The notes beneath the pieces were generated by a model, which was not told the origin of the DNA, ran no database searches, and saw only the letters and a list, made by a program, of their open reading frames with translations. A stretch of DNA of 64,000 nucleotides from Methanocaldococcus villosus KIN24-T80 (GTDB taxonomy: Archaea; AGJL01; Methanococci; Methanococcales; Methanocaldococcaceae): positions 1 through 64,000 of the forward strand of contig NZ_AQUK01000001.1 of NCBI RefSeq assembly GCF_000371805.1, written 5' to 3'. How positions within the stretch are numbered: position 1 is the stretch's first letter; each line of letters starts with the position of its first letter. Made by a program: the position numbers and the translations under genes. This document shows positions 11,150-19,115 of the stretch, in pieces.

Positions 11150-12043
11150 ATGAAAATGTCAAAATTTGCTCATATAACCAAAATACATCCTTGCTTTAAT
11201 GAAAAGATTCATGATAAAGTCGGAAGGATTCACTTACCTGTAGCTTTAAAGTGTAATATAGCTTGTAAATTTTGTAGAAGAAGTATTGGGAAGGAAGCAT
11301 GTGAGCAAAGGCCTGGAGTAGCAAGAGCTATATTAAAGCCAGAAGATGTTGAAAGTTATTTAAAGAGAATGTTAGATAAATATCCAAATATAAAAGTTGT
11401 TGGTATAGCAGGACCAGGAGATAGCTTATTCAATAAAGAAACTTTTGAAACTTTGAAGATTATTGATGAGAAGTTCCCAAATCTAATAAAATGTATATCA
11501 ACAAATGGGTTATTATTACCAAAATATTATAAAACTTTAGCTGACTTAAATGTTAAGACTGTAACTGTTACTGTTAATGCAATAAATCCAGAAATTCTGA
11601 AAGAGATAGTTGAGCGGGTATATTATAATAAGAAAATATATAAAGGTATTGAGGGTGCTGAGATACTAATAAAAAATCAGTTAGAAGGGATAAGGAAGGC
11701 ATATGATGAAGATCTAATTATAAAAATTAATACAGTGTTAATTCCTGAAATAAATAAAGAACATGTTGTTGAAATAGCTAAGGAGTTAAAGGATTATGCA
11801 TATATACAAAATATTATTCCATTAATCCCTCTTTATAAGATGAAAAATTACCGACCTCCTACTTGTGAAGAACTAAAAAAAGTTAGAGAAGAGGCTGAAA
11901 AATATCTACCACAATTTAGAGCTTGTGCACAATGTAGAGCTGATGCTGTGGGGTTAATAAAAGAAAAAGAAGAATTAAAAAATTACTTTAAAGAGCAAAA
12001 TAAGGAATTAGATGTATTTGAAATAAAACATTTCTCTCATTGA
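11150..12043 (+). CDS. nifB: NifB-type radical SAM protein
   Basis: 297 aa, the short archaeal form without a C-terminal NafY/NifX domain. The radical SAM motif is CNIACKFC (Cys35, Cys39, Cys42). Further NifB hallmarks are [12 protein letters not shown] and the C-terminal [10 protein letters not shown] (Cys259, Cys262). In diazotrophs NifB makes the 8Fe-9S-C core of the nitrogenase cofactor. Many methanogens carry nifB without a complete nif operon nearby, as here, so either nitrogenase lies elsewhere or the protein has another role. GTGAG precedes the ATG at 11150; an ATG two codons later is possible. The 3' end overlaps ycaO by 7 bp. Confidence 0.93.
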
Positions 12044-13170
12044 TAAAGTTTTTTCATCCTTTCAATAGCCATATTTGATAATCTATCTCTATCTATTGTA
12101 TAAACTTCCATTTTTGGAATTATTACTCTAACTGTATCAACTCCATATTTATTTAAATCAACATATATAAATCTGTCAAAACCATGATCAAACAGCTCCT
12201 CTTTTAAAAGATTTATATCTTTTTTTAAATTATATTTTGCTCTATTCTCTATATCTTCTAATTCTACTTCCTCTTCATATTCAAACCACTTTCTATTTAT
12301 CTTTTTAGCTCTCTCATAACTCAGCCTTTTAACAATCTTAGCCCTCCTTTTTGCATCATCTCTTTTCATGTGAAGTTGAGAAGCTCTACTTTGAGCAAGT
12401 TCTGTTAAAGCTCTAATAACTGCTATCTCTGGATCTAAGTGACACCCTACACCAATACACATCAGTAGTGGGTCATCATCAGCTATAGCTGATATAACAG
12501 GAATATTTAGTTCATTTGGCAATAATTTTAATATAACCTTAACATTTGCTTTTTCAAATTTCTCTAATAATCTATTTATTATCTCATTATCAGTTTTTGG
12601 ATTAATTTTTGTTGGAATCTTTTTAGAAAGATCTGCTAAGCTCCAACTGTCTCTCTCTATAACCTCTAATGCACCATGTAGAATAGCTTCTTCAAGACAG
12701 TTACCAGAGGCTAAACCATTAGTATGCCATCTAAACAGTTTTCCTTTAGATGGGTAAAAGACTGCATCAGCAGGGACATCAATAGGCTCAGAGTTTATTA
12801 TATCATAACCTTCTACCCAATCTTTAACATCTGTATCTGAATATGGAGGTAGAATTAAGCTATTTATATCAATCTTATTCTCAGGTTCATTCTTAATTTT
12901 ATTTTCATCATATTTAGCTGAAGCCCTTTCTATAGCTTCCATGCATGCTGAAACTTTTGCTTGTATATCTACAGCCCCTTTTCCATAATGATGATATTCT
13001 ATATTATTATTAACCCTTCTAACATAATACACAGGGATCTCTAACTTATCTATACCCATTATACTTTTCATTTCTTTAATATTTATTTTATCTAAAATTG
13101 GTTTAATGTTATTGAATGTTTCTTCTGGTGGTAATATTCTGTAAGTGACTGATCTGTAAATTTTTTTCAT
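12037..13170 (-). CDS. ycaO: YcaO-domain protein, probable McrA thioglycine maturation ATPase
   Basis: 377 aa. YcaO enzymes use ATP to activate backbone amides. The ATP-binding helices are visible as [29 protein letters not shown] and [12 protein letters not shown]. In methanogens the YcaO protein (with TfuA in many species) converts a glycine of methyl-coenzyme M reductase to thioglycine; I assign that role from family knowledge. No tfuA is adjacent. The ATG at 13170 has GGTGG 4 nt upstream and overlaps the tiaS stop as ATGA, so the two are translationally coupled. Confidence 0.88.
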
Positions 13171-14429
13171 TTTTCCACCAAATCAATAAGCTGAATGGGT
13201 TTGGATAAATGCCTTCTTGCAGATCCTGGAACTTCATAAAACCCAATTTTTAAATCTCTCTCAACTTCTATCTTTTTAATTTTATCATATTTAATCACTT
13301 TTTTACATTTTCTACATTTAAAACCTACTTTTTTACCTTTAGCTTTTAATGTCCCTCCACAGAATGGACATCTTTTATCTAAAATATATTTTTTTTCTAA
13401 TCTCAATATTTTTATTTTCTCTAAGTTTATTGTTAATGGTTCTTCCCTAACAGTGCCATAAACAGCTACATAATCTCCAACAATAAGTTTTCTTATTATT
13501 TCTCTAAATCCTTTTGTAGGTTCATAAGCAGCACAGCTAATTTCTCCAGTGCCATCAGAGATTTTAAAAATAACATGTCCTCCTTCTATATCTTTTGGGT
13601 TATTTACTACTTTTCCATAAACAATAACTCCAGTATTTGGATAGATATCTTTAATTTTCATTCTCCTAAGATGTGCATCAGTGCCATGATTTGTTTTGAA
13701 TATCATAAATCTTTCTGGCTCTTCCCCTTTAATCATTTCCATAGCCTTTATCAGTATATCTTTATCAATTCCTCTAATTCCAAAGAGTACTGGGCAGGGT
13801 GTGTTTGGAGCTATTAATATTTTATCATTTTCATAATCATAGTTATCATATGTATAAGGAAAAGTTTCTTTATCCATTATTATAACAGATTCTTTATCAA
13901 TCCTTCTTTTTTTACCCCAATTTTCTTTTTTTCTATATGCTATCAACTCATATGTGTAATCTCCAAAAAAAGCTATTGCTCCTAATGCTCCTATAATTCC
14001 TCTACCAAGCTTAAATTTATAATAATCTGCATTAATTTTCTTTAAAATGTCTTCAGCAAAATTAATATCTAAAATATCAAAAAGAGTTTTTTTATAATAA
14101 TCCCTCAGCAAGTTTATATTATTCCTATAATTTTCTTCATCTAAAAATACAACTCCAGGGTTTGTATTATCATTATCCATATCAGAGTATTTTTCTATAA
14201 TCTTTAATGTAATATCTTTTATCTCTTCTTTATCTCTCTCATCAACCTTATCCAATATCCTTATAGCCACTCCTCCATTGCCTCTTGTTTTATATTTCAC
14301 CATAGGATTGAATCTTATTAATCTAGGATCATCTAACTTATAATTACTTAACTCTTCCATTAACAGAGTAGCAATATATGTTGTACAATACCTCTCTCTG
14401 CTATCAGTATCATCTATACCTATAAACAT
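13167..14429 (-). CDS. tiaS: tRNA(Ile2) agmatidine synthetase TiaS
   Basis: 420 aa. It begins [20 protein letters not shown], the TiaS N-terminal signature. A middle catalytic region, an OB-fold ([19 protein letters not shown]) and a C-terminal zinc ribbon ([19 protein letters not shown]) follow. TiaS attaches agmatine to C34 of tRNA(Ile) CAU so that it reads AUA, essential in archaea and heavily used in an AT-rich genome such as this. It is 2 nt downstream of the glycosyltransferase gene and overlaps ycaO by 4 bp. Confidence 0.95.
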
Positions 14430-14431
14430 GC

Positions 14432-15562
14432 TTAAACCTTTATTACATTAAATATCTTTTTTCTAAAAAATTTGTTATTGAAGAAATTGTCAATTAATCT
14501 TCTAATATTCTCTTTCCCATTATAGTAATTTTTTGCTAAATTCATTAGCTTTTCAGCATTCTTTTTATAAATTTCATTTTCTTCTATTTCTTTAATAGCC
14601 TCTCCTAATCTATTAAGTTCATAATAAGATAAATAAATTCCACATTTTAAATCATCTACTTTTTTAGCATTGTTGTTCTGTTCTGGATGATCTAAGTCAG
14701 GTATGACAATTAAAGGCTTTCCAAATGAAATAGCTTCCATTATTGTTGAATGTCCTCCATGAGAAACTATTAAAGAAGCATTTGCTATAAGACCCTTCAT
14801 ATTAATAGCTAATGGAATAATATCTATATTCTTATAATCTCCATACTTGTTTTTTAATTTTTTAGCTACTTCATAGCTTCCACAAACAAGTTTAACATTA
14901 TAACCTCCCTTTACAGCAATTTCAGCTAAACTCTCCAATATTTTGTATCTATATTCAAAACCACCAATAACAGAGAGGATATAATTACCATCATTAACAG
15001 TATCAACATTGTATCTTATTAACGGCCCTATAAATTCCATATTATTTAATAGTTTTAAGTTATATTCACAAACAGTATATGGTAAGGGAAAGTCTGGAAT
15101 TATTATTTTTTCACAGGCTTTGTGAATAATATTTAAGAATTTCATTGTAGGATAAACAATAATATCAGTTTTAAACTTATATTTTGTATAGTTTTGATTT
15201 GTTATACACATTATTGGTTTATTTAACATCTTACCTACTACAATAGTGCTATATTTACAATCACTTATAATTAAATCTGGCTTATATTCTTTTATAATTT
15301 TTAATTCTCTTTCAATTGCTTTTCTTGGAGAATATTCTTTATTAAAAACTGTAGATTTTATACTAAATTTACCATCTTCTCCTTTAAGCTTAATCTCAGG
15401 ATATGTCTTAAAAACAGTATATCCATGCTCTTTTATAAAATCATAACTTTTTCCATAGGCTAAATAAGCTACATCATAGCTATCTTCTAAGGCCTTTCCA
15501 ATTGACAAACATCTTGTTGTATGGCCAAATCCCTCCCCACAAACAGAAATGAGGATTTTCAT
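14432..15562 (-). CDS. MurG-like family glycosyltransferase
   Basis: 376 aa with a GT-B fold. The N-terminus is [20 protein letters not shown] (acceptor-side Rossmann glycine loop). The C-terminal nucleotide-sugar half has [20 protein letters not shown], the His-Gly-Gly and Glu pattern of MurG/GT28-type enzymes. It corresponds to an archaeal family known from M. jannaschii with no defined substrate; a role in surface glycan or lipid glycosylation is inference. The start has GGTGAGATT just upstream. It is read as tail partner of the membrane winged-helix gene, 15 nt after that gene's stop. Confidence 0.82.
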
Positions 15563-15577
15563 AATCTCACCAAAAAG

Positions 15578-16813
15578 TTAAATTAGGTTGTCAGCTTCAT
15601 CAGTTAAAGTTAACATATTAATTCTACCAACTTTCTCCTTTTTAACAATTCCCCTCTCCTCAAGTTCAGACACAATTCTTGAAACTTTTGACTTACTCAT
15701 TCTTGTCAAGCTAACAATATCTTTTTGAGTAATATATTTATGTTCTTTAATAAGCTTAATTATTTTTTTCTCATCATCAGTTAAAAAGTTTAATAAAATT
15801 CCTTTCTCACTATCTTTATATTTATCTATAATATTTTTTAACTTTTCATTTTCATCTTTTAGTTTTTCTATTTTAGCTTTTAATTCTGTAATATTGTTTA
15901 TTAAATCTTCTTTCTCTTTCCCAAGTAATTTAATCTCTTTTAAATATTCTTCAACCTTTTTACTCATCTCACATATAACCTTATCCTTCTCTTCAATAAT
16001 ATTCTTTAACTTTCCTACTTCTTCCTCTAAAAACCTACATTTATCTTCCAAATCACTAATTTGTTTATTTTTTTCAGCCAATTGTCCTTTTATCTCTAAG
16101 TAGTTATCATATATTTGATTTTTTTCTTTATTTATTTTAATTCTTTTAAATCTCTCATAAGCTACAAATGCTATACTTCCTGATAATAAGATTAAAAAGA
16201 TTATTATATTATTATCTTTCTTTTCTTTATTGGTTATAGGTGTATATGGAGCATATGCAAATCTTAGAGATGTTGTCATGATAAACTCACTTTTGGGCTT
16301 TAAATTCCAAACAATTATCTGATGCTTACCATCCCCTGTAATCTCATAGCCTTCTGGAGTTATTAGATTAGGGTAAACAATTACAGCACCAGGAGGTAGA
16401 TAGAGTTTTATTTTTACATTTTTTCCAATAATAGGAAAATTTGTTATAAACTGATAGTAATCATATCCCTTCCATATACAATCTTTGACCAAACATGTGA
16501 GTGTTAAAGAAACTGTTTTGTTTATAGGCAGTGGTTTTTCAAATGCTACAGCTATATTTGATGTCCCATCTTGAAATACTGCTGAATATCCATCTATAGG
16601 GTAATTTGAGGAGATATTTAATATCTTAACATTTTGAGGCAATGTTATATAAAAAGTACTTTTATTATTTTCAAAGTTTTTAAATTCTAATGTTATATTT
16701 TCCAATAAATTATTATTATGTATAAAACAAACAATATTTTCATTCTCTATTTGATAGGCTAATATGTTAGGAAGAAATAGAAGAAGAATAAGCAATAGCT
16801 TTTTAATAACCAT
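15578..16813 (-). CDS. Membrane-anchored winged-helix regulator with external domain and coiled coil
   Basis: About 411 aa. A signal peptide or signal anchor occupies residues 1-20, followed by an extracytoplasmic beta-rich domain to about 195, one membrane span (IIIFLILLSGSIAFVAY, about 203-220), a cytoplasmic Lys/Glu-rich coiled coil (about 228-340), and a C-terminal winged helix (DEKKIIKLIKEHKYITQKDI, then MSKSKVSRIVSELEERGI). This is the layout of a one-component membrane sensor that would bind DNA while attached to the membrane. Similar proteins occur in other Methanocaldococcales; the signal and targets are unknown. GGTGA overlaps the apparent start, so the exact start is unsure. It is divergent from secF. 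Confidence 0.75.
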   Translation of the reverse strand: MVIKKLLLILLLFLPNILAYQIENENIVCFIHNNNLLENITLEFKNFENNKSTFYITLPQNVKILNISSNYPIDGYSAVFQDGTSNIAVAFEKPLPINKTVSLTLTCLVKDCIWKGYDYYQFITNFPIIGKNVKIKLYLPPGAVIVYPNLITPEGYEITGDGKHQIIVWNLKPKSEFIMTTSLRFAYAPYTPITNKEKKDNNIIIFLILLSGSIAFVAYERFKRIKINKEKNQIYDNYLEIKGQLAEKNKQISDLEDKCRFLEEEVGKLKNIIEEKDKVICEMSKKVEEYLKEIKLLGKEKEDLINNITELKAKIEKLKDENEKLKNIIDKYKDSEKGILLNFLTDDEKKIIKLIKEHKYITQKDIVSLTRMSKSKVSRIVSELEERGIVKKEKVGRINMLTLTDEADNLI

Positions 16814-16877
16814 CACCTCAATGTATATATATGATTTTATGATTTTATATAAAAAGATTATTAATCAGAGGGGGATA

Positions 16878-17702
16878 ATGTTAATAAAAGATTATAAAGT
16901 TGCTATATCAGTTCCAATTTTTTTAATATTCATATCCCTAATGTTGATAACATTGAAAGGTATTCCAAAAAGTATAGATATAACAGGAGGTACTGAAATA
17001 ACAATTAAGCTAAATAAAGATATTGATTTGGAAAAGCTAAAAGAGATGTTAAAAGGAGAAGGAGAGTTAGAAATATTAAAATCTGCATCAGGAAATTATT
17101 TAGTTATTAGGTGTAAGTCAGAATATTTAAATGATGTCAAAGCTAAATTAAGAGAGTTTTTTGGAGATTTAAATAAATTGGATTATTCAGAAAAAACTGT
17201 TGGGTCTGTTTTGAGTAAGAAGTTTTTTGAAGAAGGAGGAAAAGCTATGTTATTTGCTTTTATATTTATGGCTTTAGCAGTTTATATAGCTTTTAGAAAA
17301 CCTTTAGCTAGTGGTGTTATAATACTTTCAGCTTTAGCAGATTTAATTAATACATTAGGAGCTATGAGCTTACTAAATATCCAGTTATCAACAGCAACAA
17401 TAGCTGCTTTACTAATGGTTTTAGGTTACAGTGTTGATTCAAACATATTACTAACAACAAGGGTTTTAAAAAGGACAAAAGATTTTGATACTGCAGCTAA
17501 GGAAGCTATGAAAACAGGATTAACAATGATTACAACTACAATAGTGGCAATGTTAATATTATATATTGTAGTTAAGCTCTTCATTCCTGTAGCAGATGTA
17601 TTGGCAACAATATCATCAATAATTATAATAGCATTATTATTTGATATTATAAACACTTGGATGCTGAATGCAGGAATATTGAAAGCTTTCTCAAAAGCTT
17701 GA
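16878..17702 (+). CDS. secF: Protein-export membrane protein SecF
   Basis: 274 aa from ATG 16878, set by GAGGGGG 4-10 nt upstream; an upstream in-frame extension has no site. It has an N-terminal membrane span, then an external domain (VKAKLREFFGDL), then five spans with the SecD/F motif ALADLINTLGAMSLL and VLGYSVDSNILLTTRVL. SecF, with SecD, assists late steps of Sec-dependent export. secD is not next to it. The gene is divergent from the membrane-anchored winged-helix gene, and the trkH start is only 3 nt after its stop. Confidence 0.93.
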   Translation: MLIKDYKVAISVPIFLIFISLMLITLKGIPKSIDITGGTEITIKLNKDIDLEKLKEMLKGEGELEILKSASGNYLVIRCKSEYLNDVKAKLREFFGDLNKLDYSEKTVGSVLSKKFFEEGGKAMLFAFIFMALAVYIAFRKPLASGVIILSALADLINTLGAMSLLNIQLSTATIAALLMVLGYSVDSNILLTTRVLKRTKDFDTAAKEAMKTGLTMITTTIVAMLILYIVVKLFIPVADVLATISSIIIIALLFDIINTWMLNAGILKAFSKA

Positions 17703-17705
17703 GTG

Positions 17706-19115
17706 ATGAATTTGATAATGAAAAAAGAAGATATCTATGGAATATTGCATATATTAGGAGGGGTTATTGGGATTATTGGAGCATTTATGTTAATCCCATC
17801 TGTTATTGCTTTTTACTTTAAAGAACCTACTATTTTAAATTTTTTAATTCCAAGTTTTATATTTATAATTTTAGGAATTGGATTAAATAAAAAGTTTAAA
17901 GCTAAAAATTTAAAGCTCTATCAAACAATGATAGCTTCTGCATTATCTTGGTTAATAGCATCTTTAATTGGAGCAATTCCACTATACCTTTCTATTCCTT
18001 ATTTTTCTTATGTTGATGCAGTTTATGAGAGCATGTCAGCTTGGACAACAACAGGAATGACATTAATAGCAGATGTTGAATCCTTACCAAATTCTGTTCT
18101 ATTTTGGAGAAGCTTTGAACAGTGGATTGGTGGTGTAGGAATTTTGGTTTTATCTGCATTAATACTAGCAGGTAAAGGAAGTGTAGCAAGTTTATTTTAC
18201 TATTCTGAAGCAAGGCAGGAAAGGATAATGCCAAGTTCATTAAATACAATAAAAGTTATTTTTAGTATCTATCTTTTCTATACTATTTTGGGAATTTTAG
18301 CTCTATATCTTTCTGGACTCTCCTTTTGGGCAGCTTTAAATTTAACAATGACTGGAATATGTACAGGAGGAATGAGTATATATAATTACAGCTTTCCAAA
18401 TAATATTTTTGCTAAGATAGTTATGATTATAATAATGCTTATTGGTGGAGTAGTTTCATTCTTAATTCATCATAAAATTTTAACAGGAAAATGTTTTAAA
18501 GATATACAAACTAAATATGCACTAATAGTTATCATCATAAGCTCATTAATTATCTATTTTATTGATAAAATAGATATAATAGATGCTATTTTTATAACTA
18601 CTTCAGCTTTAACATCAACAGGATTTTCTACTATAGATCTCACTTCTCTTTCAAATCTTTCACTTTTTATACTAATTTTTATAATGCTCATTGGTGGAGG
18701 AGCTGGAACAACAACAGGAGGAGTTAAGATTATAAGATTTTTAGTAGTTTTAAAAGCAATATATTATGAGATACACTCAGTTATCATACCAAAATCAGCT
18801 GTAGTATATGAACATTTGGAAGATATACCATTAAGTTATAGAATTATAAGAGAAGCATTTGTTATATTTTCTCTATATATTATAACATCATTCATAATTG
18901 CTATGGTGTTTATAGCTTTAGGTTATGATCCATATAAATCAATATTTGATGCAGTTTCTTTTGTATCAAATATTGGATTATCTTTAGGGGTTGTGAGCTT
19001 AAAAACACCATTAATAGGAAAAATAGTAGCTATTATAGGAATGTGGATGGGAAGATTAGAGTTTATCCCTGTTTTGGTATTATTTGCTGCCCTGTTAAAA
19101 AAGAGATTATCTTAA
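17706..19115 (+). CDS. trkH: Trk-type potassium transporter membrane subunit
   Basis: About 469 aa, with four membrane-pore-membrane repeats. The filter-like loops are SAWTTTGMTLI, MTGICTGGMSIYN, TSALTSTGFSTID and FVSNIGLSLG, as in TrkH/KtrB. It mediates potassium uptake, normally gated by a TrkA/KtrA RCK protein, which is not adjacent. Starts at 17703 (GTG), 17706 (ATG) and 17718 (ATG) are all possible; the secF stop overlaps this region, so expression is coupled to secF. The 3' end overlaps convergent cfbD by 9 bp. Confidence 0.92.
   Translation: MNLIMKKEDIYGILHILGGVIGIIGAFMLIPSVIAFYFKEPTILNFLIPSFIFIILGIGLNKKFKAKNLKLYQTMIASALSWLIASLIGAIPLYLSIPYFSYVDAVYESMSAWTTTGMTLIADVESLPNSVLFWRSFEQWIGGVGILVLSALILAGKGSVASLFYYSEARQERIMPSSLNTIKVIFSIYLFYTILGILALYLSGLSFWAALNLTMTGICTGGMSIYNYSFPNNIFAKIVMIIIMLIGGVVSFLIHHKILTGKCFKDIQTKYALIVIIISSLIIYFIDKIDIIDAIFITTSALTSTGFSTIDLTSLSNLSLFILIFIMLIGGGAGTTTGGVKIIRFLVVLKAIYYEIHSVIIPKSAVVYEHLEDIPLSYRIIREAFVIFSLYIITSFIIAMVFIALGYDPYKSIFDAVSFVSNIGLSLGVVSLKTPLIGKIVAIIGMWMGRLEFIPVLVLFAALLKKRLS

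Follow-up and report, generated by a model that had tools for sequence, protein, structure and literature searches.

What does a transcription factor with an external domain report from the cell surface, and which genes does it control? The question is raised by a gene in the window analyzed here, the first 64,000 nucleotides of contig NZ_AQUK01000001.1 of Methanocaldococcus villosus KIN24-T80, a thermophilic methanogenic archaeon. The initial annotation described its product as a membrane-tethered transcription factor with a signal peptide, an external beta domain, one span, a coiled coil, and a winged helix, and suggested that it senses the cell-surface or export state and controls secF-trkH. 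Hydropathy, heptad analysis, Pfam, and AlphaFold2 agree with this architecture, which is well supported (Table 1).

Table 1. Features of the regulator locus and their positions in the window
Feature	Position	Strand	Basis
MJ1255/VC2487-family glycosyltransferase (GT28; MurG/Alg14-13-like), probable operon partner	14432..15562	-	NCBIfam TIGR00661, 380.9 bits
Regulator gene, membrane-tethered DUF7343 winged-helix protein, 411 aa	15578..16813	-	ORF, Pfam
Winged helix-turn-helix (DUF7343/MarR-like), residues 344-404	15602..15784	-	Pfam; invariant basic residues
Cytoplasmic parallel coiled coil (predicted), residues 226-336	15806..16138	-	Heptads, continuous modeled helix
Single transmembrane span, about residues 200-222	16148..16216	-	Hydropathy
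Extracellular beta-sandwich ectodomain, residues 20-187, Ost1/ribophorin I-like fold, 4 N-glycosylation sequons	16253..16756	-	AlphaFold2, fold searches, profile comparisons, sequon count
Signal peptide, residues 1-19	16757..16813	-	Hydropathy; modeled helix 3-12, then strand from 20
Divergent promoter region, regulator/secF; TATA box the sole word shared across relatives	16814..16877	.	Upstream-region comparison
secF, divergent neighbor, lineage-limited linkage	16878..17702	+	NCBIfam

The regulator starts with the ATG at 16813; the GTG at 16816 falls within a Shine-Dalgarno-like GAGGTG. Its hydropathy profile shows two hydrophobic runs only, corresponding to the signal peptide and the span. 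The AlphaFold2 model presents the ectodomain as beta strands (pLDDT mostly 85 to 96) and the cytoplasmic part as one continuous helix (residues 214 to 336) followed by the winged helix (346 to 403); the span is modeled poorly (pLDDT 30 to 40). The annotated coiled coil stands far above chance. In residues 226 to 340, hydrophobicity recurs with a period of exactly 3.5, a signal equaled in none of 5,000 shuffles, and 26 of the 33 a/d positions of a single heptad register are hydrophobic, Ile-rich at a and Leu-rich at d. This pattern favors parallel dimers. From its sequence, the coiled coil is strongly predicted to be two-stranded and parallel, about 16 nm long, and to hold a pair of DUF7343 winged helices on the cytoplasmic side. 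The match to DUF7343 (PF24034) covers residues 345 to 403 (56.5 bits; curated cut-off, 27.6), with MarR-type families ranking behind, and the basic residues K374, K376, R379, R387, K392, K394, and R397 are invariant across 18 orthologs.

Both a span and a signal peptide are present, so this is not a soluble MarR-type regulator. The orientation, with the winged helix at the C terminus and the N terminus outside, differs from that of ToxR and CadC. A predicted span and a DNA-binding domain in one polypeptide are what defines the transmembrane transcription regulators (TTRs; ToxR, CadC, and ArnR/ArnR1) in the accessible part of PMC10269533, and the protein combines the two; it may act on transcription from the membrane. 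Membrane-bound regulators are described there, and in the available part of PMC6396743, as known and common in archaea. ArnR/ArnR1, as far as the accessible part of PMC13286277 describes them, carry the HTH in their N-terminal region, in contrast to the C-terminal winged helix found here.

Orthologs were identified in 34 of the 36 Methanococcales genomes searched (this genome counted), and the membrane-tethered DNA-binding layout was conserved among them, which bears out the annotated architecture in relatives. Completeness is 81% for G004 and 54% for G035, the two genomes without a match. The ortholog in M. jannaschii would presumably be MJ1254, beside MJ1253 and MJ1255. Among the genomes read, the long coiled coil was confined to Methanococcales, where the length from span to winged helix varied between 118 and 214 residues among 33 sequences (L034 to L065 and the window). 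Counted from the winged helix, the heptads keep a similar phase near the span in most of these sequences but with clear outliers, and this feature carries no weight here as evidence. Literature searches returned no paper on DUF7343, DUF7345, or MMP0402 (a presumed locus tag) and, for MJ1254, only one unrelated yeast paper.

The fold of the ectodomain bears on what may be sensed. Its best match in the PDB was Ost1/ribophorin I, a subunit of the eukaryotic oligosaccharyltransferase (7oci_A; VIA-align Z of 16.5, rmsd of 2.5, 164 residues aligned), over Ost1 residues 230 to 443, which form the membrane-proximal lumenal domain. Ranks 1 to 8 were held by eight Ost1/RPN1 entries (Z of 15.0 to 16.5), followed by M1 peptidase N-terminal domains (Z of 13.1 or less), and Foldseek gave an E value of 2.5e−9 for Ost1/ribophorin I. 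The full-length model produced the same ranking, although the two groups lay close together at their boundary (14.2 versus 13.8). Searches with single profiles were less decisive. A 10-row ectodomain profile retrieved, at E up to 10, one of 177,635 PDB sequences, human RPN1 (E = 0.1), in a match colinear through LPxGA into the span. A larger 26-row profile, from Methanococcales only, retrieved zero PDB chains at E of 10. With another phylum included, a 30-row profile placed yeast Ost1 third (0.15), after two cytokine receptor sequences, and the profile of that phylum alone gave an Ost1/RPN1-type PDB match at 0.66, fourth of five. None of these results is significant alone, and the matches to a cytokine receptor, an Ssr1698 protein, and a proteinase inhibitor were taken as chance. 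With the Ribophorin_I profile (PF04597), the regulator of the window was not listed at E of 10; in three alignments of 10, 26, and 12 members, a single member each gave a weak match.

Profile-profile comparisons were made with archaeal ribophorin I-like proteins. Seven of these (L087 to L093), all outside Methanococcales, have at least 566 aa and contain a pair of beta domains, a span, and a tail of helices; a search with their alignment retrieves human RPN1 at 5.6e−26. The match to them reached 89.8% with the 26 rows (alignment A4, 26 of the 33 available sequences, near-duplicates omitted), 96.2% with the 30 rows (alignment A6, likewise freed of near-duplicates, with 16 rows from Methanococcales and 14 from the other phylum), and 95.4% with the other phylum alone, always on the membrane-proximal domain. 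Once the signal peptide and span were trimmed, ribophorin scored 95.3%, DUF2207 84.2% (one of 14 segments dropped as too short), and the M1 peptidase domain 12.5% (hhalign). When signal peptides were kept in the alignments, DUF2207 (97%) stood above ribophorin (95%). Reversed-alignment controls gave 0.1% for ribophorin and 16.5% for DUF2207. Shuffles of 30-column blocks reached 38 to 39 and 56.7 where the real ectodomain scored 41.7 and 61.8, which is only a narrow separation. The ranking in the trimmed comparison and the controls indicate that the ectodomain is a member of a wider beta superfamily, with ribophorin I the closest of the three families tested. DUF2207 and M1 peptidase N-terminal domains have a related beta fold (Z of about 13 for M1) but score below ribophorin when trimmed, and to our knowledge neither carries a winged helix. 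The regulator shares with ribophorin I/Ost1 and its archaeal homologs the fold of the membrane-proximal lumenal domain, with profile similarity there, followed by a single span. It is not itself a ribophorin I, as it is without a Pfam match to that family and has one beta domain (residues 20 to 187) instead of two, and it continues into a coiled coil and a winged helix where ribophorin I has a helical ribosome-binding tail.

The distribution of N-x-S/T sequons fits an external position of this domain. The 33 ectodomains contain 128 sequons against 70.8 expected from shuffles, and the cytoplasmic parts contain 30 against 52.2 expected, a skew that supports the topology and exposure to AglB rather than being a clean statistic, because the 33 sequences are related. 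STT3/AglB is present once in this genome.

Turning to the possible targets, we surveyed 33 relative loci, matching their genes to those of the window by BLAST. The TIGR00661 glycosyltransferase, not mentioned in the initial annotation, begins 15 bases downstream of the regulator gene in the window. Thirty of the 33 relatives have it downstream and on the strand of the regulator, adjacent in many and otherwise behind one or two genes. The three exceptions are L048, where the contig ends, and L045 and L066, which belong to genomes that encode the enzyme at another site. Its location elsewhere in G010 and G033 shows that linkage to the regulator is not obligatory. Outside Methanococcales, the enzyme exceeded the cut-off in 1 of 18 genomes (G037), which had no match to the window regulator. 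Two genes follow the glycosyltransferase at 12037-14429, with a 2-base gap and an overlap; we take them to be YcaO-domain and TiaS-like genes. A different gene comes next in most relatives read, and its sequence is presumably CofD-like. Two Glyco_tran_28_C loci were found in G007, which we take to be M. jannaschii, the strong one being the regulator-linked glycosyltransferase. The accessible part of PMC8993221 treats a methanogen clade, wide in Methanococcales, as fused Alg14-13 homologs placed in the same tree as Agl24, and this tree includes M. jannaschii AAB99267.1, probably MJ1255. Euryarchaeota build on dolichol phosphate (same part of PMC8993221), which bears on the reaction that the Alg14-13-like enzyme might catalyze. 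A literature search returned no paper joining MJ1255 with a glycosyltransferase.

The divergent neighbor is clearly secF (406.7 bits; NCBIfam cut-off, 304), and the annotated divergence was confirmed, with a gap of 64 bases. A divergent secF upstream of the regulator was found in 13 of the 33 relatives, namely 11 of 12 in the family of the window and 2 of 21 in a second family. The downstream glycosyltransferase is thus a more conserved candidate target than secF (30 versus 13 of 33), although a common role in the envelope may be all that this adjacency reflects. trkH directly follows secF (17703-19115) in this genome alone when compared with the 33 relative loci; within the stretches read, none of them had trkH near the regulator. 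Control of trkH, as initially proposed, was therefore rejected, and control of secF, whose linkage holds in one family and is missing from most of the other, was retained as weak. A search for operators in 10 upstream regions, with an approximate start codon for some, found no shared word longer than the TATA box; TTTTATATA occurred in 6 of the 10 regions, with a shuffle maximum of 5.

A second possible partner was found in the other family. There, a gene for a secreted protein of about 330 to 360 aa and CW_binding_2 type lies between the regulator and the glycosyltransferase in 14 of the 21 loci (the Pfam assignment, made for three of the 14, was above the cut-off in two and just below it in one). 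This gene overlaps that of the regulator by 10 to 35 bases in 12 of the 14 loci, with a gap of 21 bases in L055 and one of 60 in L057. CW_binding_2 and DUF7343 are fused in one open frame with a transmembrane segment in 12 of 14 genomes of another archaeal phylum, a count that comes from compared match positions, with sequences read for three. G040, of a further family, also has the fusion, by position. A gene pair in one lineage and a fusion in another argue for joint action of the CW_binding_2 protein and the regulator. In the window's genome, a single weak CW_binding_2 protein is encoded, away from the regulator. This secreted protein of 317 aa (L086:4748-5701; G000:C1:492747-493700), beside apparent cobalt-transport genes, is possibly an unlinked partner.

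The ectodomain itself extends beyond Methanococcales. Of 20 loci with DUF7343 proteins in another phylum, 17 had ectodomains that matched its Methanococcales profile, as did L067 (E of 2e−7 to 7e−26); among the remaining three loci, L108 gave no match (2.4) and L113 and L114 are of CW_binding_2 type. L069, from a further family, matched at 0.0085 over half the domain. Two Woesearchaeota proteins (L082:1759-2472 and L083:5395-6168) have a signal peptide, another ectodomain (labeled a carboxypeptidase-regulatory-like beta domain from sequence reading), one span, and the same winged helix. The archaeal DUF7343 (PF24034) membrane proteins that we read share a signal peptide, an ectodomain, one span, and a C-terminal DUF7343, and they differ from the regulator by a short linker in place of the long coiled coil or by a CW_binding_2 ectodomain. 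They point to a modular archaeal family, where ectodomains are swapped on one chassis made of the span and the winged helix.

An ectodomain resembling an oligosaccharyltransferase subunit and a glycosyltransferase as usual neighbor suggest that the regulator may report surface-protein export and glycosylation. Our preferred reading, held tentatively and with slightly more doubt than belief, is that of a membrane-tethered one-component regulator that senses either of these two processes and controls the glycosyltransferase operon, perhaps with secF. By strong prediction from the sequence, the signal peptide places the ribophorin I-like beta domain outside, connected through one span and the coiled coil to the paired winged helix in the cytoplasm. 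The outer domain would read the state of surface glycoproteins as they exit the translocon or the oligosaccharyltransferase, either directly, via its own N-glycans, or via the CW_binding_2 partner where present. A change in the dimer would then travel down the coiled coil to the winged helices. By binding the promoter of the operon that includes the regulator gene, these would determine how much of the downstream Alg14-13/MurG-like enzyme is made. The divergent secF may be controlled as well in Methanocaldococcus. A ribophorin-like fold alone shows no function; the annotated sensing of the surface or export state is plausible, with added support from the ectodomain and the two partners. The archaeal literature searched yielded no regulator for either N-glycosylation or the export machine.

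Other readings of the locus make different use of the same evidence. The original one, an export-state sensor controlling secF-trkH from the divergent promoter, draws on the linkage to secF within the family of the window, on the short gap shared by the promoters, and on the action of ribophorin I at the translocon in eukaryotes (accessible part of PMC11417166). We regard it as quite unlikely, since trkH is absent from all relative loci, most loci of the second family are without secF while the regulator and the glycosyltransferase remain paired, and divergence alone is weak evidence of control. A doubtful but more serious candidate is a regulator of another envelope property, such as S-layer integrity or osmotic or surface stress, acting on scattered targets, with the glycosyltransferase simply co-transcribed. 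The beta, CW_binding_2, and carboxypeptidase-regulatory-like ectodomains borne by the module in other archaea suggest that the signal may be generally surface-related, but the linkage to a single enzyme in 30 of 33 relatives and the ribophorin-like fold argue against it.

The winged helix could also serve as an anchor, in a protein that would be mainly a tether holding chromosomal loci (or ribosomes) near the translocon. A ribophorin I-like ectodomain beside the membrane and a long coiled coil would suit such a role, as would analogy with the tail of Asgard OST1, which binds ribosomes (accessible part of PMC11417166). However, the recognition helix of DUF7343, a MarR-like domain, is conserved, and close relatives in another phylum are without the long coiled coil, which makes this role highly unlikely. 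The single-span topology would permit signal-dependent proteolysis to release the coiled coil and winged helix as a soluble regulator, but there was no protease gene adjoining the regulator in the loci read, and a coiled coil kept from the membrane to the winged helix suits tethered signaling; we give this mechanism hardly any credence.

Of 394 archaeal genomes, 8 contained a match to Ribophorin_I. OST1 has been reported in eukaryotes and in TACK and Asgard archaea, with a tail that binds ribosomes, in a study whose accessible part has no mention of euryarchaeal regulators (PMC11417166), and further OST subunits have been reported in Asgard archaea (accessible part of PMC10307638). A literature search returned no paper combining ribophorin, helix-turn-helix, and archaea. 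Within the literature searched, the ribophorin I-like ectodomain and its association with CW_binding_2 and with a MurG/Alg14-13-like enzyme are new. More speculatively, and with low probability, a single ancestor might lie behind the sensor of the archaeal membrane regulators, an ancient family in this view, and the outer domain of eukaryotic ribophorin I. It would have been a translocon-side monitor of N-glycosylation or export, joined to a winged helix in Methanococcales and another phylum, where the genome would thereby learn directly of the condition of the glycosylation and export machine, and to a ribosome-binding tail in TACK archaea, Asgard archaea, and eukaryotes. With such a regulator beside an Alg14-13-like enzyme, the origin of the non-catalytic subunits of the eukaryotic oligosaccharyltransferase and the regulation of N-glycosylation and export would both become testable, and Methanococcales include genetically tractable members. 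A weak Ribophorin_I match, below the cut-off, was seen in L094, where it covers the C-terminal part of an adenylate-cyclase-like protein (a label from sequence reading).
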